Positions 1 to 16,408 of a stretch of DNA of 16,448 nucleotides are shown here, piece after piece. The position numbers and the translations under genes are program-made. Every line of letters begins with the position of its first letter. The stretch's first letter is position 1. The stretch is from an uncultured Clostridia bacterium (GTDB lineage Bacteria; Bacillota; Clostridia; Oscillospirales; Ruminococcaceae): positions 1 to 16,448 of the forward strand of contig CAMDZU010000003.1 of NCBI GenBank assembly GCA_945910715.1, written 5' to 3'. The notes below the pieces were generated by a model that had not been told where the DNA came from, ran no database searches, and saw nothing but the letters and a program-made list of their open reading frames with translations.

Positions 1-3000
1 AAGGGGGCAATGGCTGACCTTACAATTTACAACAATGCAGTAACTTCAGGCGGAGTTTTTGCTGCTGTAAGCGGCAGCGGCGACATCGGTCTTGCCTGCG
101 GAACAATGGAGGCAAGCTCGGTGCTTACAGTAAGCGTAAGCGGCAGCTGCACAGGCTTTGACGTTACCTCCTCAAGCGGCAATGCAGGCGGTCTTGTGGG
201 AAAAATGAACCCGGGCTCTGTGCTTACAGTAAGCCATTCGGAGGCTGATATCGCTATTGATGATGCAATGACCCTTGGCTTGTCCATTGACAGCGATGGG
301 CAGCAGGGCAGTGAACGTTTTTCCGCCGCTCCGAAATTAACTATCGGCTCTTCGCAGATGATGTTCAATGCCGCTCCCATAAACGGCGGCTTTAAAACAA
401 ACGGCACAATTTCCGCAGCAAAGTATGCAGGCGGAATTGCAGGCTATTCCGAAAACGGACAGGTATTCATCAACGGCAAGGTAAATACTGCGGTAAACGG
501 CGGAAGCGGCTCGGGCGGCGTTTTCGGCTACTACGGCAGCACTCTGCCTATACTTGAAATTTCGGGCTACGACATAACCTGTACCGCCAACGGCGCATAT
601 TCGGGCGGTATTTTCGGTGTGCTTGAAAATAACGGCGGCATTGTTTCGGTTGACGATACAAGCTCGGTTACTCTTTCAAGAACAGCGGACGAAAGAAGCA
701 ATAAGGACTACGGCGGCATTATCGGAAAATACTCCTCCGACCTTACAAGCCGCAGCCTTGAAATAAGCGGAATTACGGTAACCGTCAGCAGAGCGGCAAA
801 GGCAGGCTATTACGGCGGTATTATCGGCGTAATCAGCGACGATTCCTATGTAAAGCTTTCGGGAATTACCGTAAACGCTTCGTACTGCAAGGATAATCTG
901 AACAATGTGTTCGGCGGTCTTGCGGGATACAGCGAAACAGCCTTTATTGACGCTGTAAACGTTACCGTAAACACAAACGGTCAGTTTATCGGCGGCGGAG
1001 CTGTGGGCAAAATGAACAGCGGCGTACTGCGCTTCAGCGGCAAAACCAACCTTGGCGGTACGGAGGCGGTTTACGACGGCTCAAAGGGCGGCGGACAGAT
1101 AGTCGGCACAAGAGAAAACGCCCTTATTTACGCAAAGGACGGCTGGATTTTCATAAGAGGAACTGCTGTCGAGGTGGACGATATAGGCAACTGGGGCCAG
1201 GTTGTGCGCTTTAACGGCACAAACTTTACGGAAAGCAGCGTGCTTGATGTAAATGAAACCGAACATACCGTTAAGGTTAAGTCGGTTGACGTTGCAAACG
1301 TGTCGGGACTGTCGGGCTTCGGGGCGCTGGCACTTAATATGCAGCTGAATTACGGCAGCAATATGGGAACTCTGCTCTTTGACAGCGGCTCGTCATGCGC
1401 TGTGCTGCTGGGCTCGGCTATAAAGCTGTCGGGCAATTTTGACCTTACGGGCACGGGATTAACAGGTCTTACCAGAGATGACGGCGTAACAGTCAAGGTG
1501 CAGAATAATAAGCAGGTTTATTTCACGGGAAGTCTTACAGGCGAAAACTGCACCATTACTCTTGCAATAGGCGAGGCTTACGGCTATCGTTTAAGCGAAT
1601 CGGTGCTTGCTGTTCCGGTAGAAGCAGGCTGCGGCATTATCTACCGCCACAAATACAACAGCCTTATTTCAAAAACAGGTAACGGAGCTTCCTTCAGCAA
1701 TATTGCCGTAAACGGAAAAATCACCGTGAAGGTAATAGGTACAAACGACCATAACAATATAGGCGCATTTTCCGCTATACACATGGCAGGGGCTTTTTCC
1801 GCCGATAATGTAAATCTTTCGGAGGAAATCACTCTTTCGGGCAGCAACAGCAACAACAAATATTCCTTTGTGGGAAGTATGATGGGCAGAGTAGGCGAAA
1901 ATGTAAGCTCTTCCTCATTACCCGTCACAATAAGCATAACAAACAGCGTTTTCGGATCGGAGATAACCTGCACCGCAGACGCAAGGACAATGGCAAGCGG
2001 CGTAATCGGCGAGATAAGCACAAATTACAGCTTTTCCGTAATAGCCGATACGGTTACAATTTCAACAAAGGTATCAAATTCAAGCACAAACGACGCCGAC
2101 AGAACAGGCTGCTTCCTTGCAAATATAGCAAATTACGGCAACAGCTACGATACGGGCGCAAGAGAAATTACTCTTACAAACGTGACTGTAAGGGAAGCGT
2201 CGGTTTCTTCAAAGGGCATGGGCGGCGGACTTCTTGGCGAAACCTGGAACAATACCAAAGTCATAATCGGCGGCGATGGCGTAAATGGAATTACCGTTGA
2301 AAGCGGTACTGTGGAGCTTCTGACCTCCAATCCCTTTGCGGGAATATGCACTGCTGCAACAGGCTATTGGCAGGTTTACGACCTGAAAATAAACAATATC
2401 ACCGTCACGGGTACAAAAGCAAGCTCCTTCGGTATGCTTATAAACAGGGGAATTCACACCGATTACAGCAAGGAATACGCATTGTACCTCGAGCTGAAAA
2501 AGCCGGACGCTTTCGTTATAAATTCCGCTGACCTTTCGGGCTTAAAGAGCGGAATAACCTATGACGAGCTGTTAGCCACCTGCTCGGCAAATTACACTTC
2601 AGATATTTCCGCAAACGGCAAGGCTGTTGTTTCCGTACGCACCGAATCGGGCAGTGTGCAGATGGACGGAGCAGGCTGCAATACCTATCAGAATCAGTCG
2701 GGCAGAAACGTTACAAACAATAACACAAGATATTACTACAACCTTGACCTTATCAGGGAAAAGAGCGTAGCAGGCACACTCACAGACCCCGAAAAGCTTA
2801 TGCTGTGGAGCCTTAATGCCTATGCCCACACAAGAATACAGAAGTATTTCACCAATCCCTTCGGCGGAAATACCATACCTGCAGGAAGCTATGATATGAC
2901 GGGATATTCCTATTATCCCATTGACGTTTCATCGGCAGTTACCGCCACGGACGGCAGCTCCTTCACCTTCCGCAATTCGCAGATAGAAAGCGGCGAAAGC

Positions 3001-6000
3001 GGAACGGGCAATTCCGACGGCATGGTGCGCTCCACCTCGGACAAAACCACTCAGCATTACCTTATGCACGGCGGTCTGTTCAGAAACGTAACCGCCGCTC
3101 TTACGGTAAACGGCGCTTCCTTCTCGGGCAGCACGGGAGTGCTTGACGACAACGGCGGCTCGGGCGCACTTGTCTGCGGCACGGTTTCGGGCAGTACGGT
3201 AACCACAGTCCTGCTGAAGGTAAACAACATTGTCCTTAACGGAATAAAAATAAGGGATACAAGCGGCTATGCTCCGCTGCTCATAAATAATATGGGCAGC
3301 TATGTCAAGGCCACAATCAAGGGCGTTACCATGACAAACAGCGCCTATACCGATAAGGCGGCAACAAGTCTTATGGGCAACGTAGGCGGAAATGACGCCA
3401 ACGGCATAAATGTTGTTTTCAGCGGAATTGCGCTGGAGGCTATGCCCGAAAACAGTATTTTCAGCAGCGCAACCCTCCTTAACAGCTTTGTATATCCCGC
3501 AGGCAGCAGCTGTACGGTGGTTTACAACTTCAAGCACGGCGAGGACTGGGACTCGGGCGGAAACCATATTCGGAATGTAACCTACGGCAGGGAAATTTCG
3601 GAGTCGGTGGAATACGCCGACACAGCAGAGCACCCCTACTGGCAGAAGAAGTATATCGACAGCGAATACTTTACCTCTCCCGAAAACTCAGCAAGCAGCA
3701 GCGAATACAGCTTTGCAGGCTATCTTCCCTATGTGGCGGTGGGCTATAATGCAGTCAACAACAATCACGAAATAGAGGTTAACCACAAAAACGATACAAA
3801 CCTTGAAATGGGCTGCGGCACCTATAACGACCCGTATATTATCATAAGCGGCAATCAGCTTGCCCTTGCGGCAAATCTGATGTACGGCAATGAGCCCACA
3901 ACGGACGGAACAATCATCAATTTCCACGGGGATAATTACAAGTCGTGGTGCGGAATCGAATCGCCTCATACCGAATTTGTATGGGATTCGGAGCAGTCTG
4001 CTTTTGTTGACGCAGGCGGCAACAAGAAAACCGTTGCGGAAATGGCGGCGGCGCTTTCTACCGCTTATTACAAGCTGGATAACAATATTGTTCTGCCCAT
4101 ATCCTTTATCGGTCTTGGAAAAAGCGTTCCCTTTATGGGTGTAATCGAGGGCGCTGACCATACGGTAACCGCTCAGAATACAGTACCATTCATTTATCAG
4201 TCCACAGGCTCCGTTGTGAGAAACCTTACTGTAAATGTAACGGCTGAATTTACCACAACAAGCTACACCGCAAGCAGCAGGTATGAAACGGATAATGGCG
4301 GTACTGCGCCGTTTTACGGCGGACTTATAGGCATTGTAAACGGCGGCGACAATATAATCGACAAAGTCAGCGTTCAGTTTGAGAAAAGCAGCACCATAAG
4401 CGTAAAAGACGGCAGCTGCTACGGAAATATGGCAATAGGCGGCTATATAGGCGTTCTGAGATACGGCGGCGTTTATTTCAGAAATATGTCCGGAATAAAT
4501 CACAGCGGCATAACCGACAACAGCAACAACGACTTCACCGCCGTGGAATCAAACAGCTACAAGGGTAAGGACGGCGAGGTAAGGCTTTACCTCAACCATA
4601 TCATAGGACGTGTAATAGACGGATTTGCCGTAACCGAAACGAATAATTACGAGCCGGGCGAAGCAAACGTCACTATGCAGAACGGCACAAAGAATTATTC
4701 CATTGCCGACATTGATAAAAATGCTCCTCAGCTTTCCTTCGGCAGCTTTTCGCATCCCACGGGCAAAAACTCCATAAACCAGTCCACAATAACCGTTCCC
4801 AACGCACAGTCCCTGTTTATTATGGGCTGTATCGCAATGAGCGGCGCAGGCAGCGCAGGGCTTAACGGCGCTTACCCCAACTCCTACAGCTACGGCAATG
4901 GTCAGATGACCCGTCACGGAGAGTATAACGAAATCGGAAGCGCCTCCTCCGCCGATTACAGCCTTGCAAGCAAGGACGGCTATGCAAATACAAAGGATAC
5001 CGTTCCGTACATTATCTACAAATATACTCCGCAGATTTCGGACGGCTTGAATAATTACTATCCGGCAAGAAGCATAACCAACAACAACTGCGTATTCACC
5101 CTTGAGCTTGCAGGAGGAACTTATACTCTTCCTGACGGCTTCAGAGGAATAGGCTCAATGCATTCTACAAACGAGAACCTTGAAATGTACCTTTACGGCA
5201 TAAATGGCAACAACTCGGTAATAGAGCTGAATACGAGCTTTAATATGTACCGCTACAATTATGAGGCTTATTACAAAATCAACGGCAACAAGGATTTCAA
5301 ATTAGGTCTTGGTCTGTTCAATATGCTTATCCTCAATAAGAGCGACATTGTGCCTACCGATTTCACAACCGATACCACGGGCAAATATGACGGATATAAA
5401 ATTTCCGACCTTACCCTGACGGGAAATGTGAAGCACAGGGTATTTTACAGCGAGGCGGATACTTCCCCCGATTATGACGGTTCTTACTCGGGCTGTGCGG
5501 GAGCTCTCGGAGGTGCGTCCAATACAAACGGCACATTATACATGGAAAATATAAGTCTTGATAATCTTTCCGTAAGCGCTAACCAGACCGCAGGGGGCAT
5601 TGTTGGCTCGGTAAGATACGGTCTTACGACAATAAAGGGCTTCAGCGGAAACAATGTGTCTGTAACAGGAGGAAAATGGGCAGCCGGTCTTATAGGCGTA
5701 AGCAACAATTGCACGGTTGAAATAGACGGACAGACTTCGGGCGGAACAAGGGGAAGCTTCATCAACAGTACCGTGGGCAGCTCAAAAGGCGGAACCTTCA
5801 ACGACGGTTACGGAGCGGGAGGAATTTTCGGCGGTTCTTACAACGGCAAGGATATTACTGTAAGAAATGTGGATATCGAGAACGTAGCTATAGATATGAC
5901 CTCTGTTCCCAACAACACCGTTTTTGCGGGAGCTGTTATCGGAAACGCAGGGGAGGAGGACGATAAAGCAGCCAACCAAAAGGCGGCTATAATCGAAAAC

Positions 6001-9000
6001 ATTACCGTCAGAAGCACAAGCATTACCGTCAGCAACAATGCTGTCACCTTTAGCGGCGGTATTGCAGGCGCCTACAAGGACAGCGTTATGACAGGCAAAA
6101 TAACCAATTGCCACCTAATAGGCAACGAGGACGGCAGCTCCATAATAACGGGCAAATATGACTCCGGCGGACTTATGAGCATTTCACGAGGCAATCTGTT
6201 AATAGACAACTGTTCCGTTGAGAATTACACGATAAAATCATACTCATCCAGCGCAGAGGGCGCAGGCGGCTTGCTTGGAAAGATAGAAAAAAGCGCAAAC
6301 AAAACGAGAACAGCAGTTCTTAAAAACAGTCTTATTTCCGACTGTGTTATTATTCAGCAAAGCGGAAAGCCTGCAGGCGGTATTTTTGCCGCAGCCAAGT
6401 ATAATATGGGAATAGTCGGCAGAAATATTACGCTGAACAATGTGCAGGTAACCGATACAAACGGCAATGCAATGACAGGCAACTCGGGCGGCGACGCAGC
6501 AGGAACTCTTGACAGCGGCTGCTCTCTTGAGCTGGTGGGACTGTGCGTTCAGAAAGCGGAGAACGGCAAATATCCAAACCGGACTGTGGGAACAAACAAT
6601 GGCAGCATTTACGTCATTTATTCCGATTATGAGGGCAAATGCCTTGACCATGGGGCAAATACCGAGCCGCCGACCTTCAATACAGCGGCGGACGTTACCG
6701 ATATGGGAGCCTACCCCTATGCGGTAATAAACCCTGCTTTGAATGCGGACGGAGCAATGCTGCTTACAGGCGACGGAATAAGCCTTACCGCATTTACGAA
6801 TATTCTCAGCGATATTGAAAGCGGCAGCGATACACGGTATAAAAACGTTGACGCAGACGCAGGCACTTTCGAAAGCTACAAGTCCAAGCTGTCAACCTTC
6901 AAGGAGAAAACAGGCAGCGGTATTTCCGATGAGCAGAATTTCCCCGTGCTTGTAATAAACGACTCCAATTACAGCAACGTAACCTCTATGTTGAACAGCT
7001 ATATACGTCTTCTGACCAACAACAGGCTGACCAAGGACAAAAAGGATGTAAACTATGCGGGGGATAACAGCTCATTCAACGTGGAAATTTCCGTTTTACG
7101 GCTTGAAAACAATGTTTTTGTTGAACAGGCGGACGTAAGGACCCTTGAAATAAGCGGCGGCTTCTTCAAAATGACCGATACGGCTTACGACAGCGCATAC
7201 GACGCACAGTTCACCCTTATCGACGTTCAGTATTACGCCCCGGATCAGTCGGGCAAGGTGGCTTATCACCTTTATATTCCCGTTTATGTGGAGAAAATGC
7301 TGAAGTTCGACTTTATGGCGGCGGCTCTTTCGGGAACAAGATATAACGGCGAGCTTTACACCTACGGAAACCCTGTTCTTGAAAGCTACGGCACTCCCGT
7401 AACCGACTACATAACCTATTTCTACCGCAGAACGCCTCAGGAATGGGAGTCTGCTATAAACGGCGGCGAAAATCTCCTTTCGGGCTACGGAAAGTCGGTT
7501 ATTCTGTTATGCAGCAACGACCTTCCTGCCGATACAAGGCTTGTGCTGGTGGATAAGAACAATAAGGGAAAGGCTTATTATTCCACAATCGGAGAGGCTC
7601 TGAGGGACTTTGACCATAAGCTTGATTTCAGTCTGTTCAATTCATCCGACGGAACAGCCTTTGCTCCCGTGGACTTTGTGACGCTGCTTGAAAAAGCGGC
7701 GGATATAACGGCGGTACAGAATACAAACGGCACTCTTGTTATCTGCGAGGGCGATATTTCCGCTGCCACAATAAAGGTGGGCGAAAACTATTACAGGAAA
7801 AAGACAGATGGTGATACGGATACCTCGAAGCTGTACACCGTTACCGTTGCCGCAAAGGCGAATATGACGGACGAATCGGGACTGCTGAAGGTATATGAGG
7901 ATTATTACATCAGCTTCTTTACCGAGGACGACGGCACTCAGCCTATGAGGAACATTACGCTCAAGTGCAGCACAAGACTGGGCGACAGCGGAATGACCCC
8001 GTCCCGTATGAACAACACCGGCTCTGAGCAGAACAATGTCCATATGATACTTGGCAACCTGTATGACCAGGAGGTTACCTTTGTTACTACGGGGGATCAG
8101 GTAATCAACGAGAATAACAACAAGGTAACTGCCGAGATGAGAGCGGTTATTACCCTTAAATCCGAAAATGCGGAGGACGTAAAGGCTTATCTCCGTTACA
8201 GCTCAATTCATCTGTATCAGGCGTTTATAATCGAGGCGGACAGAACAGACGAAAACGGCACTGAAAAGGGCATAAAGGGCAGTCCGTATATCACAGGCTC
8301 CTATACCACAGGCGGCAATAGCTATAACGTGGGCTTCAACTGCAATGATTCGGTTATCTGCTTTACGGGCGGCAGCGGAGAAACCGCCGTTGACATCAAG
8401 GACCAGCTAATAAGCGGAAACAGCGCAGAAGTTATCTGCAATGATCTGCAGATAGTTTACGGCGACGGTACGGGCATAATAGAGCAATTCCCCGAGCGAA
8501 AGACAGAGGACAGCGGCTACGGCACTGCCTTCTCTGCAAGCTCCAACCTTGCCTATATACGGGATAACCTTGTTCACAGCAACATTTCCGCCGTTCCTCA
8601 GATAGCGGACGGAAAGCCTTACTACCGCGATAATATTTCCGGCGTATCGCTGAATTACAACATTTCCGCACTTACTCCAAACGAGCTTTCCAACTGCGGA
8701 ATAAACGGCAGGGAAACCAACGGCGAAATCAACGCTGTAGGCTATTACAGCGTCACAAACGTTCCCGAGGCCGACCTTGGCAGAGCGGAAAAGGTGAAAT
8801 TTACCCTGAGCCTTTTACGCAAGGACAATAACAAAACCTACGTTCCCGTGGATATTTCGGAATACCTTACGGAGGTAAGCCTTGAAAACACCAACGGAGT
8901 ATGGGAGCCCGGAGGAGCAGGCCAATATACCTTTACCTTTGACAAGAACCTGCTTAAATACGAGGCAGGCACCTATGAAATCGCTACCAAGTATTCCGTT

Positions 9001-9171
9001 GTGACAGGGGATATCTTTGAGCAGAAGGGCTACACATACGCAAACTACAAGGTGAAGCTTGAAGCGGAGCTGCTTGACGCTGAAGGAAACGCCATAAGCA
9101 ATACTCTTTGCAGCGATTACATTATCTATACCAATGCAAAGATTTATACAAATATGATTTCGGCAAGCTGA
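1..9171 (+). CDS. Giant GLUG-like beta-solenoid surface/secreted protein (5' partial)
   Basis: This is probably an extracellular adhesin-like or cell-surface repeat protein; no enzymatic motif was recognised. The frame is open to the left edge. The first in-frame ATG (base 10) has no signal peptide after it and the G-run before it sits too close for a normal ribosome binding site, so the true start probably lies upstream. Residues below count from that ATG. GGxxG turns recur at about 60, 141, 169, 199, 235, 269, 302 and 329, every 27-36 residues for most of them, each followed by a short beta-strand-like stretch rich in Thr, Ser, Val and Asn. More occur at 1437, 1477, 1862, 1937, 2016 and 2086. 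At 1270-1278 (GTYNDPYII) and 1353-1388 (YYKLDNNIVL, then GxIEGADHTV) the pattern matches the module that opens GLUG-repeat regions. From about 2330 to the end the sequence is non-repetitive and beta-rich. The C-terminus (end NMISAS) has no LPXTG motif, dockerin or terminal membrane helix, so its surface attachment is unclear. The coding call is secure; the role is inferred from the architecture. Confidence 0.9.
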   Translation, partial: KGAMADLTIYNNAVTSGGVFAAVSGSGDIGLACGTMEASSVLTVSVSGSCTGFDVTSSSGNAGGLVGKMNPGSVLTVSHSEADIAIDDAMTLGLSIDSDGQQGSERFSAAPKLTIGSSQMMFNAAPINGGFKTNGTISAAKYAGGIAGYSENGQVFINGKVNTAVNGGSGSGGVFGYYGSTLPILEISGYDITCTANGAYSGGIFGVLENNGGIVSVDDTSSVTLSRTADERSNKDYGGIIGKYSSDLTSRSLEISGITVTVSRAAKAGYYGGIIGVISDDSYVKLSGITVNASYCKDNLNNVFGGLAGYSETAFIDAVNVTVNTNGQFIGGGAVGKMNSGVLRFSGKTNLGGTEAVYDGSKGGGQIVGTRENALIYAKDGWIFIRGTAVEVDDIGNWGQVVRFNGTNFTESSVLDVNETEHTVKVKSVDVANVSGLSGFGALALNMQLNYGSNMGTLLFDSGSSCAVLLGSAIKLSGNFDLTGTGLTGLTRDDGVTVKVQNNKQVYFTGSLTGENCTITLAIGEAYGYRLSESVLAVPVEAGCGIIYRHKYNSLISKTGNGASFSNIAVNGKITVKVIGTNDHNNIGAFSAIHMAGAFSADNVNLSEEITLSGSNSNNKYSFVGSMMGRVGENVSSSSLPVTISITNSVFGSEITCTADARTMASGVIGEISTNYSFSVIADTVTISTKVSNSSTNDADRTGCFLANIANYGNSYDTGAREITLTNVTVREASVSSKGMGGGLLGETWNNTKVIIGGDGVNGITVESGTVELLTSNPFAGICTAATGYWQVYDLKINNITVTGTKASSFGMLINRGIHTDYSKEYALYLELKKPDAFVINSADLSGLKSGITYDELLATCSANYTSDISANGKAVVSVRTESGSVQMDGAGCNTYQNQSGRNVTNNNTRYYYNLDLIREKSVAGTLTDPEKLMLWSLNAYAHTRIQKYFTNPFGGNTIPAGSYDMTGYSYYPIDVSSAVTATDGSSFTFRNSQIESGESGTGNSDGMVRSTSDKTTQHYLMHGGLFRNVTAALTVNGASFSGSTGVLDDNGGSGALVCGTVSGSTVTTVLLKVNNIVLNGIKIRDTSGYAPLLINNMGSYVKATIKGVTMTNSAYTDKAATSLMGNVGGNDANGINVVFSGIALEAMPENSIFSSATLLNSFVYPAGSSCTVVYNFKHGEDWDSGGNHIRNVTYGREISESVEYADTAEHPYWQKKYIDSEYFTSPENSASSSEYSFAGYLPYVAVGYNAVNNNHEIEVNHKNDTNLEMGCGTYNDPYIIISGNQLALAANLMYGNEPTTDGTIINFHGDNYKSWCGIESPHTEFVWDSEQSAFVDAGGNKKTVAEMAAALSTAYYKLDNNIVLPISFIGLGKSVPFMGVIEGADHTVTAQNTVPFIYQSTGSVVRNLTVNVTAEFTTTSYTASSRYETDNGGTAPFYGGLIGIVNGGDNIIDKVSVQFEKSSTISVKDGSCYGNMAIGGYIGVLRYGGVYFRNMSGINHSGITDNSNNDFTAVESNSYKGKDGEVRLYLNHIIGRVIDGFAVTETNNYEPGEANVTMQNGTKNYSIADIDKNAPQLSFGSFSHPTGKNSINQSTITVPNAQSLFIMGCIAMSGAGSAGLNGAYPNSYSYGNGQMTRHGEYNEIGSASSADYSLASKDGYANTKDTVPYIIYKYTPQISDGLNNYYPARSITNNNCVFTLELAGGTYTLPDGFRGIGSMHSTNENLEMYLYGINGNNSVIELNTSFNMYRYNYEAYYKINGNKDFKLGLGLFNMLILNKSDIVPTDFTTDTTGKYDGYKISDLTLTGNVKHRVFYSEADTSPDYDGSYSGCAGALGGASNTNGTLYMENISLDNLSVSANQTAGGIVGSVRYGLTTIKGFSGNNVSVTGGKWAAGLIGVSNNCTVEIDGQTSGGTRGSFINSTVGSSKGGTFNDGYGAGGIFGGSYNGKDITVRNVDIENVAIDMTSVPNNTVFAGAVIGNAGEEDDKAANQKAAIIENITVRSTSITVSNNAVTFSGGIAGAYKDSVMTGKITNCHLIGNEDGSSIITGKYDSGGLMSISRGNLLIDNCSVENYTIKSYSSSAEGAGGLLGKIEKSANKTRTAVLKNSLISDCVIIQQSGKPAGGIFAAAKYNMGIVGRNITLNNVQVTDTNGNAMTGNSGGDAAGTLDSGCSLELVGLCVQKAENGKYPNRTVGTNNGSIYVIYSDYEGKCLDHGANTEPPTFNTAADVTDMGAYPYAVINPALNADGAMLLTGDGISLTAFTNILSDIESGSDTRYKNVDADAGTFESYKSKLSTFKEKTGSGISDEQNFPVLVINDSNYSNVTSMLNSYIRLLTNNRLTKDKKDVNYAGDNSSFNVEISVLRLENNVFVEQADVRTLEISGGFFKMTDTAYDSAYDAQFTLIDVQYYAPDQSGKVAYHLYIPVYVEKMLKFDFMAAALSGTRYNGELYTYGNPVLESYGTPVTDYITYFYRRTPQEWESAINGGENLLSGYGKSVILLCSNDLPADTRLVLVDKNNKGKAYYSTIGEALRDFDHKLDFSLFNSSDGTAFAPVDFVTLLEKAADITAVQNTNGTLVICEGDISAATIKVGENYYRKKTDGDTDTSKLYTVTVAAKANMTDESGLLKVYEDYYISFFTEDDGTQPMRNITLKCSTRLGDSGMTPSRMNNTGSEQNNVHMILGNLYDQEVTFVTTGDQVINENNNKVTAEMRAVITLKSENAEDVKAYLRYSSIHLYQAFIIEADRTDENGTEKGIKGSPYITGSYTTGGNSYNVGFNCNDSVICFTGGSGETAVDIKDQLISGNSAEVICNDLQIVYGDGTGIIEQFPERKTEDSGYGTAFSASSNLAYIRDNLVHSNISAVPQIADGKPYYRDNISGVSLNYNISALTPNELSNCGINGRETNGEINAVGYYSVTNVPEADLGRAEKVKFTLSLLRKDNNKTYVPVDISEYLTEVSLENTNGVWEPGGAGQYTFTFDKNLLKYEAGTYEIATKYSVVTGDIFEQKGYTYANYKVKLEAELLDAEGNAISNTLCSDYIIYTNAKIYTNMISAS

Positions 9172-9177
9172 ATTTGC

Positions 9178-9217
9178 AGGAGGATAAAAGGCTTATCCAT
9201 TTATCCTCCTCTTTTTA
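9178..9217 (+). terminator. Intrinsic terminator of the giant gene
   Basis: A perfect 11-bp stem (9178-9188, AGGAGGATAAA, with 9200-9210, TTTATCCTCCT) encloses an 11-nt loop and is followed by CTTTTT. It begins 7 bases after the TGA of the giant gene, the classic position for Rho-independent termination, and separates that gene from the downstream operon. Confidence 0.9.
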
Positions 9218-9225
9218 TGCCGGCT

Positions 9226-9269
9226 TATACTATTTCCTAATCAACCTATAGACAAAGTCTATAGGTTGA
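9226..9269 (+). repeat. Left terminal inverted repeat of the palindromic element
   Basis: This arm matches the reverse complement of 9369-9412. Over 9234-9269 it agrees at 30 of 36 positions, and the outer 8 bases agree at 6 of 8. It contains hairpin A, with core TATAGAC-AAA-GTCTATA at 9247-9263. The six differences in the 36-nt part are all in the hairpin stem and form three compensatory base-pair changes. Confidence 0.8.
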
Positions 9270-9368
9270 TCCCACCGCTTTGCGGTGGGTGCGGCAAAGC
9301 CGCAGGAAAGCCGTTCAATACTAATTCAGTCAAAACCATAGGTTTTGACTTGCCGCCTTTCAGGCGGC

Positions 9369-9412
9369 TCTCCTTATAGACTTTGTCTATAAGGAGATTA
9401 GGAATTAGTATT
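9369..9412 (-). repeat. Right terminal inverted repeat of the palindromic element
   Basis: This is the inverted partner of 9226-9269. It contains hairpin F (core TATAGAC-TTT-GTCTATA at 9375-9391, exactly the reverse complement of the core of hairpin A). It ends in GAATTAGTATT, which also pairs perfectly with 9317-9327. Confidence 0.8.
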
Positions 9413-9419
9413 AAATTGT

Positions 9420-9445
9420 GCATACAGCAATACAGTATGCTTTTT
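9420..9445 (+). terminator. Weak terminator-like hairpin
   Basis: GCATAC (9420-9425) and GTATGC (9435-9440) form a 6-bp stem with a 9-nt loop, followed directly by TTTTT. It could stop residual read-through from upstream before the operon promoter. The stem is short and AT-rich, so this is only a possible site. Confidence 0.35.
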
Positions 9446-9500
9446 GCCGAAATAAATATTCAATAATCCAACAAAAAGTTGCAAAACCCTACGAAACTCC

Positions 9501-9529
9501 TTGCTTTATGAGGAAAAGTATGGTATTAT
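9501..9529 (+). promoter_or_regulatory. Sigma70-type promoter for the lipoprotein-kinase operon
   Basis: TTGCTT (9501-9506) and TATTAT (9524-9529) are separated by an ideal 17 bp, with TGG just before the -10 (extended -10 type). Transcription would start near 9536, giving a leader of about 134 nt before the ATG at 9670. A 10-bp inverted repeat, ATTCAATAAT at 9458-9467 and ATTATTGAAT at 9525-9534, overlaps the -10 and could be a regulatory site, though it is AT-rich and may be chance. Confidence 0.6.
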
Positions 9530-9535
9530 TGAATT

Positions 9536-9669
9536 AAATCTATATAAAGTGCACGGGGTTATAAGGCAAACAAAAATATTATCATCAGGCAATGCCATTG
9601 AAAGCACGGGGTTTAACAGGCTTTCAATGGCGTTTTTGACGGTCTGACCGCCGTCGGAAGGGAAGAGGA
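9536..9669 (+). promoter_or_regulatory. Structured 5' leader with possible attenuation
   Basis: The predicted leader carries two direct copies of GCACGGGGTT (9551-9560 and 9604-9613), a small palindrome CAATGCCATTG (9590-9600) overlapping the 5' arm of the terminator hairpin, the terminator itself (9594-9637), and a last small hairpin GACGG/CCGTC (9638-9642 with 9651-9655) just before the ribosome binding site. No known riboswitch consensus was recognised. The leader may control read-through into the operon. Alternatively, promoter and terminator may define an independent small RNA of about 100 nt. Confidence 0.45.
9594..9637 (+). terminator. Intrinsic terminator inside the operon leader
   Basis: A perfect 11-bp stem (GCCATTGAAAG 9594-9604 with CTTTCAATGGC 9621-9631) has a 16-nt loop and is followed by G and TTTTT (9633-9637). 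It sits 32 bases before the lipoprotein start codon and downstream of the only good promoter in the gap. No complete ORF ends just upstream, so it is placed like an attenuator or the end of a small RNA. Confidence 0.75.
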
Positions 9670-11505
9670 ATGAAGAAAATAAGATTAAGGCTTGTTTCGG
9701 CAATTACGGCTGCTGTTATGGCAATAACGGCATTTGGCGGCTGCGGAGGGAACGTGGCTTCGGAAGAGGCGGACACCATTTCCGTTTATCTCTGGAGCAC
9801 CGCTATGTATGAAAGCTTCGCTCCCTATATTCAGGAGCAGCTGCCTGACATCAACATTCAGTTTGTGGTTGGAAACAACGACCTTGATTTCTATAAATTT
9901 CTCAACGAGAACGGACAATTGCCCGACATTATCACCTCACGCAGATTTTCTCTTCACGACGCTGCGGAGCTGAAGGATCAGCTTATGGATTTATCCACCA
10001 CCGAGGAGGCAGGGGCGATTTACGAATCCTATATCGGAAACTTCACCAACACCGACGGAACAATAAACTGGCTGCCCCTTTGCGGTGAGGCGGACGGTCT
10101 TGTTGCAAACAGAGCGCTGTTTGAACAGTACGGCATTCCTATGCCAACAGACTATGACAGCCTTGTTTCAGCCTGCAAGGAATTTGAAAAGGTAGGCATA
10201 AGAGGCTTTGTGGCGGACTTTGCCTATGACTATACCTGTATGGAAATACTTCAGGGTCTTTCAATTCCCGAGATTACTTCTATGGAGGGACGTATGTGGC
10301 GCAGCAGCTACGAGGACCCTGCCGACCCAATGACAGGTCTTGACGATAAAATATGGCCCGAAGCTTTTGAGCGTATGGAAAGGTTCATTAAGGACGTGAA
10401 CATTCTCCCCGAGGATGTTGAGTACGACTATACTCCCGTTATGGATATGTTCACCGAAGGAAAGGTTGCTGTTATCCGTTCAGGCGGCTCCAACACGGTT
10501 GCTTTGCAGGAAATGGGCATAGACGCCGTATTTCTCCCCTATTTCGGACAGAACGGGGAGCAATGGCTGCTTACATATCCTGCTTTCCAGGCTGCGCTGA
10601 ACAAGGACCTTGAAAAGGACAGCGCCCGCAAGGAAAAGGCTATGCGTGTGCTTAACGTTATGCTTTCCGAGGGCAGTCAGAACAATCTTGCCAAGGGCGA
10701 GGACGTTATTACCTACAGCCGGAACGTAAATCTGGAGCTTTCGCCCCACCTTTCCAATCTCGTTCCGCTTATGCAGCAGAACCACCTTTATATCCGTATT
10801 GCCTCAAACGACTTTTTTGCCGTGTCAAAGAACGTTATAACAAAGATGATTCAGGGGGAATACGACGCAAAGCAGGCTTACGAGGCCTTTGACTCACAGC
10901 TTAGACAGCCAGAGGAAAGCACCGATGAAACGGTGCTTACAATAGACAAGACTTATTCCAACGTATTCCACAAAAACGGCGGCAACGAGGCTTATTCCGT
11001 TATGGCAAATTCCCTGCGTAATTTCTTTGAAAGCGACGTGCTTGTCGCTCCTGCATACAGCTTTACAGGCTCGGTAGTCAAGGCTGACTATACCAAAAAA
11101 ATGGTTGGCTATATGATAATGCCAAATGCGCTGACGGCATGGCAGAGTGAAATGTCGGGGGAAGAGCTCAGCGCATATCTGAAAACAGCCGTTGAGGGCA
11201 TTGAGGGCGGCTTTACGCCTTTCAACAGAGGCTCGCTGCCCGTTGTAAGCGGAATTTCTGTTGAAGTTGAGGAAAAGGACGGAAAATATATCCTTAAGAA
11301 CGTTCTTAAGGACGGAAATACAATAAAGCCTACCGATACCTTTAAGGTGACCTGCCTTAACACATATGCATACATGGCTCCTTACCTTGACGAAGAAAAC
11401 CCCGTTTTTGAGGCAGTGGAAAAGAATGTAAAAGTACACTGGACTGATTATATAGCAGAGGGCGGCACAATTGCGGAACCCGAAAATTATATTACATTGA
11501 AATAA
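9670..11505 (+). CDS. Solute-binding lipoprotein fused to a 5'-nucleotidase C-terminal-like domain (paralog 1)
   Basis: This is a membrane-tethered extracellular ligand-binding protein of 611 residues. The start is supported by AAGGG (9658-9662) 7 nt upstream and by an immediate signal peptide: basic MKKIRLR, a hydrophobic stretch, then lipobox FGGC with the lipidated Cys at 25. Residues about 36-410 match the family-1 extracellular solute-binding fold (SBP_bac_1). Shared motifs include LPDIITSRRFSLHDAA at 84-99 and WLPLCGEADG at 134-143. A polar linker follows, and about 440-575 resembles the C-terminal substrate-binding domain of 5'-nucleotidases: a YSVMANSLR start, MSGEELSAYLKTAVEG, a LPVVSGISVEVE strand, then KPTDTFKVTCLNTYA. 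The catalytic metallophosphatase domain of those enzymes is absent, so nucleotidase activity is not expected. At 611 residues it is longer than typical solute-binding proteins because of the extra domain. No transporter permease or ATPase is adjacent; a paralog and a sensor kinase follow, so a sensing role is inferred. The ligand is unknown. Confidence 0.9.
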   Translation: MKKIRLRLVSAITAAVMAITAFGGCGGNVASEEADTISVYLWSTAMYESFAPYIQEQLPDINIQFVVGNNDLDFYKFLNENGQLPDIITSRRFSLHDAAELKDQLMDLSTTEEAGAIYESYIGNFTNTDGTINWLPLCGEADGLVANRALFEQYGIPMPTDYDSLVSACKEFEKVGIRGFVADFAYDYTCMEILQGLSIPEITSMEGRMWRSSYEDPADPMTGLDDKIWPEAFERMERFIKDVNILPEDVEYDYTPVMDMFTEGKVAVIRSGGSNTVALQEMGIDAVFLPYFGQNGEQWLLTYPAFQAALNKDLEKDSARKEKAMRVLNVMLSEGSQNNLAKGEDVITYSRNVNLELSPHLSNLVPLMQQNHLYIRIASNDFFAVSKNVITKMIQGEYDAKQAYEAFDSQLRQPEESTDETVLTIDKTYSNVFHKNGGNEAYSVMANSLRNFFESDVLVAPAYSFTGSVVKADYTKKMVGYMIMPNALTAWQSEMSGEELSAYLKTAVEGIEGGFTPFNRGSLPVVSGISVEVEEKDGKYILKNVLKDGNTIKPTDTFKVTCLNTYAYMAPYLDEENPVFEAVEKNVKVHWTDYIAEGGTIAEPENYITLK

Positions 11506-11526
11506 CCGCAGACGAAAGGAAAATAA

Positions 11527-13383
11527 ATGAAGAAACGAATTATCGCCGCACTTCTGATTCTTGCAGTATTTATGGGCTTCGGGGGCTGTGGAATTTCCGA
11601 CAAGAACGACAAGGTACACATAACCATGTACCTGTGGGACAAGTCCATGACCAAGGCGCTTACTCCTTGGCTGGAGGAGCAATTCCCTGATATTGACTTC
11701 ACCTTTATCGTGGGCTACAACACCATGGACTTCTACACCGACCTTAATTCAAGGGGAGCATTGCCCGATATAATCACCTGCCGCCGCTTTTCCCTCAACG
11801 ACGCAGCCCACATGTCAGATTTGCTTATGGATTTAAGCGAAACCAACGTGGCAGGCAGCTTTTACGACAGCTACATTGAAAACAACAGGGAAACAGGCGG
11901 AGCAATACGCTGGTTGCCTATGTGCGCCGAGGTTGACGGATATGTGGCAAACGCTGATATTTTCGAGGAAAACGGCATACCTCTCCCTACAAACTATGCC
12001 GAATTTGCAGAGGCCTGCAAGCGCTTTGACCGGCTGGGCATACGCTGCTATGTGAACGACTACCGTGAGGATTATTCCTGCATGGAGGCTCTTCAGGGCT
12101 GTGCAATCCCTGAGCTTATGACAATGGAGGGAACAATGTGGCGCACCTCCTACGAAAGCGAAACCGCCGATAACCCCGTGGGACTTGACGATAATGTCTG
12201 GGTTAAGGTGTTCGAAAGCTTCGATCGTTATATGAAGGACACTATGATAAAGCCCGAGGACGTGGAAATGTCCTATGCAGTAAATAAGTCGGAGCTGCTG
12301 GAGGGCAAGGCGGCAATTATGCGTGCCACAGCCAGCGACTGCGCCGTGTTAAGACGTGACAACAGCGTCAACACCGTTATGCTGCCCTATTTCGGCGAAA
12401 CCTCCGAGGAAAACTGGCTGCTTACCTACCCCACCTGTCAGGTTGCGGTAAACAAGGACGTGGAGCAGAACAAGGCTAAATCCGACGCAGTTATGCAGGT
12501 TCTTGAGGCAATGTTCAGCGAGGAGGGTCAGCGCTGTACCGCTTCGGGCGGCGCTGTGCTCAGCTACAATAAAAACGTCAATATGGAAATAAACGACGTA
12601 TTTTCACAGGTTATGGACTGCGTAAATCATAACCGTCTTTATATGCGCCTTGCCTCAACGGAAATGTTTGCCGTTTCCAAAAACGTTGTGCAGAAAATGA
12701 TAACAGGGGAATACGGCGCAAAGGAGGCCTACGAGGACTTCAACGCACAGCTTACCCGAAAGGAAAGCAGCGAAACCCCCGAAATTGTCACCACACAGCA
12801 GACGGAGTATGCTTATGAGGTAGGCGAGCACGGCAGTCCTGCCGCTTCCGCCGCCGCAAACACTTTCCGCAGACAATGGGGCAGCGATGTTGCCATAGGC
12901 TATTCCAACTTTATAGCCGCTCCCGTTTTCAGCGGAGATTACACAAGAGAGCAGCTTAACAGATTCCTTGCAAACCGCCTTGTTTTCAGAAGCGGCGAGC
13001 TTACGGGAGCGGAGCTTAAGCGGCTTATGGAATGGCTCGTCAACGTCGGGGAGGACGGCGCTAACCCAATACGCCACCGTAATCTTATCCCTGCTGCAAG
13101 CGGAATTGAGTATCAGCTTACCGACAACGGGGACGGTACCTATACTCTCGGTGAAATAACGGTAAACGGTCAGCCTCTTGACGAAGGCAGGACCTATTCC
13201 GTAATGACGGCAGGGGACAACGATTTTATTGAATCGGACATCTACTGCGGCTGTTCCATGCCGCAGGATTTAAGCGACAAAATGAAGGTAATGGACGACA
13301 ATATCTACACGCTGTTCTGTTCCGCTTTCGAGGGCGGAAAGCAGTTTGAAGCGCCCACGGATTATGTGACCTTTATAAGATAA
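11527..13383 (+). CDS. Solute-binding lipoprotein fused to a 5'-nucleotidase C-terminal-like domain (paralog 2)
   Basis: This is a tandem paralog of the preceding gene (618 residues), alike over its full length. It starts 21 nt after the upstream stop, with AAAGGA (11515-11520) 6 nt before the ATG, so the two genes are almost certainly co-transcribed. The signal peptide MKKRIIAALLILAVFMGFGG leads to a lipobox Cys at 21. Residues about 32-410 are the family-1 solute-binding fold, with LPDIITCRRFSLNDAA at 79-94 and WLPMCAEVDG at 129-138. About 433-575 is the 5'-nucleotidase C-terminal-like domain: ASAAANTFRRQWGSDVAI, ELTGAELKRLMEWLVN, LIPAASGIEYQL, then VNGQPLDEGRTYSV. It carries 13 cysteines besides the lipid-anchor Cys, against 4 in paralog 1; these include a CGC pair near the C-terminus. 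This suggests a changed ligand, metal or disulfide chemistry after duplication. No catalytic phosphoesterase domain is present. A receptor role with the downstream kinase is inferred. Confidence 0.9.
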   Translation: MKKRIIAALLILAVFMGFGGCGISDKNDKVHITMYLWDKSMTKALTPWLEEQFPDIDFTFIVGYNTMDFYTDLNSRGALPDIITCRRFSLNDAAHMSDLLMDLSETNVAGSFYDSYIENNRETGGAIRWLPMCAEVDGYVANADIFEENGIPLPTNYAEFAEACKRFDRLGIRCYVNDYREDYSCMEALQGCAIPELMTMEGTMWRTSYESETADNPVGLDDNVWVKVFESFDRYMKDTMIKPEDVEMSYAVNKSELLEGKAAIMRATASDCAVLRRDNSVNTVMLPYFGETSEENWLLTYPTCQVAVNKDVEQNKAKSDAVMQVLEAMFSEEGQRCTASGGAVLSYNKNVNMEINDVFSQVMDCVNHNRLYMRLASTEMFAVSKNVVQKMITGEYGAKEAYEDFNAQLTRKESSETPEIVTTQQTEYAYEVGEHGSPAASAAANTFRRQWGSDVAIGYSNFIAAPVFSGDYTREQLNRFLANRLVFRSGELTGAELKRLMEWLVNVGEDGANPIRHRNLIPAASGIEYQLTDNGDGTYTLGEITVNGQPLDEGRTYSVMTAGDNDFIESDIYCGCSMPQDLSDKMKVMDDNIYTLFCSAFEGGKQFEAPTDYVTFIR

Positions 13384-16348: not shown

Positions 16349-16373
16349 AAACCGCCTTGTTGAAAGGCGGTTT
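16349..16373 (+). terminator. Possible terminator of the kinase operon
   Basis: A 10-bp stem (AAACCGCCTT 16349-16358 with AAGGCGGTTT 16364-16373) with a 5-nt loop starts 5 bases after the kinase stop codon. The T-tract is only three bases long, all within the stem, so termination may be partial. Its last two bases are shared with the next hairpin, so the two cannot be fully formed at once. Confidence 0.5.
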
Positions 16374-16408
16374 GAGCTTGTCGAAAAAGTATTTTTCGAC
16401 AAGCTCAA
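16372..16408. repeat. Long perfect palindrome with a 3-nt loop
   Basis: A 17-bp perfect stem (16372-16388 with 16392-16408) has loop GTA. It has the same architecture as the hairpins of the 9226-9412 element (long perfect stem, 3-nt loop, abutting another hairpin), so it may be the left part of a related element cut by the window edge. It has no T-tract after it and is not a convincing + strand terminator. Nothing further is recognised in 16409-16448. Confidence 0.55.

Follow-up and report, generated by a model that had tools for sequence, protein, structure and literature searches.

A new family of MITE-type mobile repeats with a two-cloverleaf fold and a duplicated TTA

A 183-bp element from an uncultured Clostridia bacterium of the Ruminococcaceae is a real, mobile, structured repeat. 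It belongs to a new family of MITE-type elements, of which it is an unusual variant, and it inserts at TTA and duplicates this triplet, as seen at two genic insertions of other copies. The element lies at 9228-9410 of the window (the entire 16,448-nucleotide stretch of contig CAMDZU010000003.1 that we analyzed) and is bounded by two copies of TTA (9225-9227 and 9411-9413).

The explanation that we consider likely is a non-autonomous MITE-type transposable element, made of tandem cloverleaves and inserting at TTA, whose pairing is renewed by DNA template switching together with selection. A transposase supplied in trans would move the 183-bp element, whose terminal inverted repeats continue into a hairpin, and insertion at TTA would duplicate the triplet. 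The two tandem modules, which are backed by covariation, would be its architecture. A polymerase that meets a hairpin could switch templates and copy one arm onto the other, and could turn the loop around, as the loop inversions and paired changes suggest. Selection on the folded element would keep the closing stems paired, and the TAA on the opposite strand would let the element settle in a stop codon with the gene intact.

Copies, ends, and sites without the element

The preliminary description of this DNA, made from one copy, had proposed a structured mobile repeat. We searched the source genome and its relatives, and the many copies, the covarying stems, and the sites that lack the element bear this proposal out. 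The repeat is dispersed among gut bacteria, in uncultured Oscillospiraceae, with relatives in other genera. The source genome (1.72 Mb in 323 contigs, 68% complete) carries seven copies that are nearly full length (89-100% identical, the window copy among them), as well as partial copies, several of which end at contig ends. Including this genome, matches were found in 7 of the 71 genomes from the genus and in at least 11 of the 297 genomes from the family (at most two candidates were scored per genome, and some may have been missed). G355, which is from another genus, has 12 full-length matches at 93-98% identity; the full-length copies in G019, from the same genus, are only 71-73% identical. 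The patchy distribution and the high identity across genera suggest horizontal movement, although most or all of these genomes are MAGs and misbinning is possible.

A pattern scan of named genomes gave 103 stretches, and among the 80 that were listed, nearly all were from Oscillospiraceae, Ruminococcus, Clostridia, or Bacillota MAGs. The hits in Lactiplantibacillus, Polaribacter, and Butyrivibrio records look like chance matches. Searching with the end motifs of the copies (TTA, then TACTATTTCC...GGAATTAGTA, then TTA) identified 87 places, counting related and short forms, and the flanks were unrelated between copies. We found no match to the repeat in collections of phages, plasmids, or viruses, and no earlier description of it in the literature searched (titles and the openings of abstracts). 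The ends of the element are:

9225-9227, no strand: TTA, left copy of the 3-bp target duplication (TTA lies beside copies; duplication proven at two genic insertions of other copies)
9228-9410, + strand: the mobile element proper, TACTATTTCC...GGAATTAGTA (copies with the end motifs and joined empty sites)
9228-9237, + strand: outer part of the left terminal inverted repeat (conserved in the 55-copy alignment)
9401-9410, - strand: outer part of the right terminal inverted repeat (copies with the end motifs and the 55-copy alignment)
9411-9413, no strand: TTA, right copy of the target duplication, TAA on the - strand (copies with the end motifs and joined genic sites)

The element had been placed at 9226-9412. 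It is real, but its true limits, with a TTA on each side, are slightly wider.

To fix the length of the duplication we rely on two copies within genes, neither of which is the window copy: one is of the window type and the other is from a sister family. On contig 61 of G355, a window-type copy splits a gene for a solute-binding protein (PF13531). Fusing its flanks with one TTA gives GVGIEMTYKGSVDIMNELK, which is identical in P0001 and P0002. The junction is also ungapped, with substitutions nearby, in P0003, P0005, P0006, P0016, and P0019, so that it is ungapped in 7 of the 7 homologs compared (of 120). No homolog of the interrupted gene was found in the 20 other genomes of that genus. On contig 2 of G062, a copy with the same ends and another core splits a PD-(D/E)XK family gene (PF12784), and its flanks plus one TTA are gap-free at the junction relative to three uninterrupted relatives (L359, L360, and L361). 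Because uninterrupted homologs match the joins with one TTA, the target duplication is 3 bp, TTA. We also found an orthologous intergenic site without the element, but because its spacer has diverged (9 bases with one TTA removed, versus 14), this site leaves the length of the duplication unfixed.

Could the element be a static regulatory palindrome or terminator, whose copies are similar by descent instead of by movement? An intergenic location near gene ends would suit this idea, but copies have unrelated flanks, interrupt genes, and are absent from an orthologous site, which makes it extremely improbable.

The element resembles prokaryotic MITEs as described in excerpts of PMC10969869 and PMC2229807: it is under 200 bp, carries no gene, has terminal inverted repeats and a target duplication, is mostly intergenic, and would form stable stem-loops in predicted transcripts. 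(There is no ORF of 60 amino acids within the 183 bp, and hence no internal transposase gene.) It differs from MITEs as a class in having two cloverleaf modules with covariation support from 55 copies, many loop inversions, and a 3-bp TTA duplication.

REPIN and REP sequences consist of an inverted pair of tagged hairpins. The element shares this arrangement, but its end tag is different and it has a target duplication. A REPIN-like or IS200/IS605-type element, moved as folded single-stranded DNA by a Y1 transposase, would account for two inverted ends that each combine a short tag with a hairpin, and the fold is predicted to be stable as single-stranded DNA. To our knowledge, however, Y1 elements make no target duplication, while here there is a 3-bp duplication along with terminal inverted repeats. 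We view movement of this kind as very unlikely.

The two-cloverleaf fold and its paired changes

The preliminary description reported 30 identities over 36 positions between 9234-9269 and the reverse complement of 9369-9404, with the six differences forming three stem base pairs, each changed on both arms. On recounting, both statements are exact. The mismatches are at 9243, 9244, and 9246 and at 9264, 9266, and 9267; these are mirror partners about 9255, the center of the AAA loop, and together they make up three pairs in the stem of hairpin A. Within the intergenic region (9172-9669), the highest-scoring inverted match of 36 bases without gaps is 32/36, as compared to 25 or less in 200 mononucleotide shuffles. 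The inverted-end comparison and the 55-copy alignment both show terminal inverted repeats. Hairpin A near the left end and hairpin F near the right end look like diverged relatives of one terminal sequence, which is why the two ends of a single copy differ.

There were 61 copies with the internal tag, and we aligned 55 unique copies of 180-200 nt, selected by a slightly broader tag rule, and assessed folds by counts over named structures. The best-supported fold is two cloverleaves, each with a closing stem and three hairpins:

9233-9309, + strand: left cloverleaf, whose closing stem (9233-9238 / 9304-9309) encloses hairpins A, B, and C (stem 97.3% paired, with 3/6 pairs changed on both sides; the DNA minimum-energy fold has a 5-bp version)
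9240-9270, + strand: hairpin A, with an AAA loop (9254-9256), a largely conserved apex TAGACNNNGTCTA, and a variable stem base (alignment and pairing counts)
9271-9289, + strand: hairpin B (94.6% paired)
9290-9304, + strand: hairpin C, core 9291-9303 (97.8% paired; the outermost pair, T9290-A9304, is from the DNA fold and competes with the sixth closing pair)
9310-9316, + strand: linker GCCGTTC that joins the two cloverleaves (alignment)
9317-9412, + strand: right cloverleaf, whose closing stem (9317-9327 / 9402-9412) encloses hairpins D, E, and F (stem 99.3% paired; similar modules occur alone as five 97-98-nt copies)
9329-9349, + strand: hairpin D (99.4% paired)
9352-9368, + strand: hairpin E, poorly aligned between genomes (73.4% paired as aligned)
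9369-9397, + strand: hairpin F, a relative of hairpin A (99.3% paired, with 8/13 pairs changed on both sides)

Across the 55 aligned full copies, 95.1% of 3974 cells are paired, although the fold was derived from one copy, so these percentages lean towards it, and related copies inflate the cell counts. Of the 73 pairs, 39 are altered on both sides. Two-sided changes occupy 313 cells, versus 83.4 in shuffles (standard deviation 6.6), and the covariation score is 0.258, versus 0.112 in shuffles. As a control, sliding the partners by 1-3 columns lowered pairing to only 35-46%.

A single palindrome closed from end to end is less well supported: its closing stem is 79.7% paired, compared to 97.3% and 99.3% for the stems of the modules. 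If the two of its 15 columns with hardly any pairing are set aside, the value is about 92%, and three of its pairs show two-sided changes. Column 13 is the most telling: paired to column 95 it fits 52/55 sequences, and to column 197, 32/54. For the window copy, the minimum-energy fold with DNA parameters is the two cloverleaves, while RNA parameters favor end-to-end closure. Relative to dinucleotide shuffles, the fold energy of 9226-9412 has z = -14.5 on the + strand and -14.1 on the - strand.

Caulobacter CIR, according to excerpts of PMC2229807, also has two structured arms and a linker instead of one end-to-end stem. But the arms of CIR are described as long inverted repeats and it is listed as having no terminal inverted repeat, whereas each arm here is a three-hairpin cloverleaf.

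The right module with its tag also occurs alone, as five copies of 97-98 nt. Since hairpins A and F are related and the right module is found alone, we infer that the two modules are related mini-elements that have fused, or at least they look like it. A 61-nt form, with five copies, amounts to a single hairpin that is a hybrid of A and F. In G062, G072, G267, and G321 there are sister families (158-182 nt) that keep the ends but have different cores. What all of the forms have in common is the terminal tag and the start of the end hairpin.

How did the paired changes arise? The preliminary description attributed them to selection or copying that preserves the hairpin. For loops A, D, and F, we compared 156 loops from 52 copies in four genome groups, each to the majority of its own group (leaving out L051, L052, and L290). 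Among the 58 divergent loops, 24 were exact three-base reverse complements, 6 had other three-base changes, and 28 had one- or two-base changes; this tally counts copies, not events. In pairwise comparisons within the group of G000, G355, and G161, 46% differ in loop A, 47% in loop D, and 35% in loop F, but only 1.6% in stem A and 3.0% in stem F. Excerpts of PMC8604942 and PMC8794818 describe both homogenization of arms and inversion of the spacer by template switching.

Mismatches also bear on this question. Across all helices but E (3590 cells), 3443 cells are Watson-Crick pairs, 55 are G·T, 36 are A·C, and 56 are other; as distinct column states, by our count, there are 24 G·T and 23 A·C. 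The loop inversions and the lack of a clear excess of G·T point to template switching in DNA replication as one source of the paired changes. Because template switching also makes paired changes, compensated pairs alone do not prove selection for the hairpin. The closing stems are another matter. Their arms are 65 and 74 nt apart, and local template switching does not easily explain covariation over such distances, so selection on the fold is still needed and best explains it. Together these results favor template switching and selection on the fold acting in combination over selection on an RNA alone.

One alternative is that selection alone produced the compensatory changes, with no coupling to template switches. 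Covariation per se cannot separate the two, and within genomes there are 39 distinct states with a one-sided stem change and 11 with a two-sided Watson-Crick change (hairpins A-D and F, with E left out, in G000, G355, CAMCFA01 with one CAMAGG01 copy, and G019). Two-sided changes lead only in G355 (4 versus 2), and all 6 in G000 are one-sided. Because of this count, we lowered our confidence in the MITE and template-switching explanation and raised that of selection alone. But whole-loop inversions (24, versus 6 other three-base changes) are not expected from separate point mutations, and we think selection alone somewhat unlikely.

The description had also left open whether this is a structured mobile element or a functional RNA. 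The copies, the covariation, and the empty sites support a mobile structured repeat. A functional RNA, such as a 3'-UTR or small RNA element that is incidentally mobile and whose stems are kept by selection on the transcript, would fit the strong covariation, including in the long-range closing stems, and the right closing stem has 22 G·T versus 2 A·C, although 14 of the 22 are from a single column. Yet G·T has no clear excess over the helices as a whole, both strands fold equally well, and no Rfam family matched the window above the gathering score. Also, the loops are often inverted here, while loops of rRNA are conserved and events that alter them are rare (excerpts of PMC8794818). A functional RNA therefore seems quite unlikely to us.

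Compensatory change is routinely taken as proof of selection on RNA, and here, dozens of copies pair two-sided changes in the arms with full inversions of the loop. With this family of mobile repeats, the origin of two-sided changes in one template switch is directly testable in bacteria. What is most interesting about the repeat is its store of loop inversions and compensated stems, from which it may be possible to read how hairpins are corrected and inverted as DNA is copied.

Insertion at stop codons

Read on the other strand, TTA is TAA, so an insertion can fall in a stop codon without disrupting the gene, and the element then always has the same orientation. Of 57 window-type insertions, we classified the 52 that have 320 bp or more of flanking sequence on each side. 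Using crude ORF calls, and with insertions from few genomes, 14 of the 52 coincide exactly with the TAA that ends a called ORF (100 codons or longer) and keep that stop; 30 are intergenic; and 8 are in called ORFs, some of which are probably spurious. As background, 486 of the 8768 TTA sites that are stop codons or intergenic (5.5%, in loci of at least 3 kb) are stops, which gives a binomial P of 6e-8 for 14/44. By a looser criterion, the stop frame holds 16 of 52 insertions and the remaining frames 0 and 3; among all TTA sites, the stop-frame share is 3.4%. We scanned eight of the host genes; three of them end no more than five residues from an almost full-length domain (ornithine carbamoyltransferase, GGDEF, and LytTR).

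Among the 51 insertions with called neighbors, 24 are between tandem genes of the opposite direction, 8 are between tandem genes of the same direction, 11 are between convergent genes, and 8 are between divergent genes. The excess between opposite-direction tandem genes likely reflects the duplicated triplet, which reads TAA from the right end. The geometry itself is observed; a preference for landing in stop codons would explain the counts, but purifying selection against other sites may suffice.

A target triplet that is a stop codon in one orientation allows insertion at gene ends without altering the protein. BOX in Streptococcus pneumoniae is also an interspersed repeat that supplies stop codons (for 36 of 58 overlapping genes, according to excerpts of PMC3049150); we liken the two by description, not by sequence. 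Unlike in BOX, the stop codon here is the duplicated target itself, in one fixed orientation.

Candidate mobilizers and neighboring sequences

IS5-type DDE transposons have terminal inverted repeats and 3-bp target duplications, as does the element. The same two features are shared with PIF/Harbinger DDE transposons and their MITEs, as described in excerpts of PMC2213677. In 11 genomes, PF01609 matched in 7 and PF13586 in 2, at a total of 15 loci. The 3-bp duplication matches the IS5 and PIF/Harbinger groups, but none of the 15 loci shares these ends: no PF01609 or PF13586 transposase was bounded by a pair of them, and there were only isolated tag-like matches. (Our repeat check of these loci used the longest ORF, which was not always the transposase, and the tag was then sought over the whole loci.)

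The terminal pattern, which misses ends of the G246 type, is present in at least 9 of 12 chosen genomes and at least 7 of 396 genomes from the family, including the source genome. Among the matches in these 12 and 396 genomes, there was no gene-bearing partner with these ends. In 4 genomes we also looked for lone ends, allowing 2 mismatches in the outer tag; in 15 regions chosen around such candidates among the matches listed, tag positions and ORF beginnings, judged by eye, showed no transposase. Short-read MAGs often lack long multi-copy elements.

Two candidates were rejected. A 3.1-kb pair of ends on contig 29 of G355 encloses a gene that looks by eye like a regulator. G072 has two regions (L427/L430 and L429) where sister elements are within or close to a transposase gene, and L429, on contig 1, had resembled a 1.8-kb autonomous element. 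It is really three 106-bp sister elements (40-145, 1393-1498, and 1720-1825, with ends TAATACTAAACACCAATAAAACTATAGACAAA) in or beside a broken IS5-type transposase gene. Two of them interrupt this apparent gene, which was already broken.

A more speculative possibility, and a rather unlikely one, is that the fold itself is the mobile substrate: single-stranded DNA would extrude during replication, a transposase would read its shape (the tag and the TAGACNNNGTCTA apex) instead of the stem sequence, and template switching would renew the shape while the stems drift. If so, this would be a shape-encoded transposon that is able to settle in stop codons without harming genes.

Several other repeats adjoin or resemble the family. 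L203 and L283, two 284-nt copies at different genomic sites, share a palindromic insert nested in the right module, a sign that copy and insert may have moved together as one composite. In L418 (contig 106 of G062), an IS5-like transposase gene is flanked by GGCAACACCGCACAA repeats. Similar sequences, GGCAATACCGCA, lie beside some copies in G000 (contigs 1, 34, and 136), hinting at a second MITE family that adjoins the first. In G020 (L313, L321, and L334), among the matches listed, there are 159 tag-like ends with up to 2 mismatches, versus 38 for a control with the pattern reversed. Many of these form pairs roughly 60 or 130 bp long, which suggests that the tag is shared by several more small families.

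The window has other features as well. Near the start of the contig, a 3053-amino-acid ORF (10-9171) has no match in Pfam and is rich in GG(I/L)xG-like repeats; from its sequence, it is possibly a giant surface protein. Downstream of the element are two tandem, related lipoprotein-like genes (9670-13383; 611 and 618 amino acids), one of which matches SBP_bac_1 and the other a C-terminal 5'-nucleotidase domain. They are followed by a hybrid sensor kinase of 973 amino acids, with HisKA, HATPase, and two receiver domains. Directly after the kinase gene, an inverted repeat (16372-16408; 17 bp, perfectly matched, 3-base loop) is probably its terminator.
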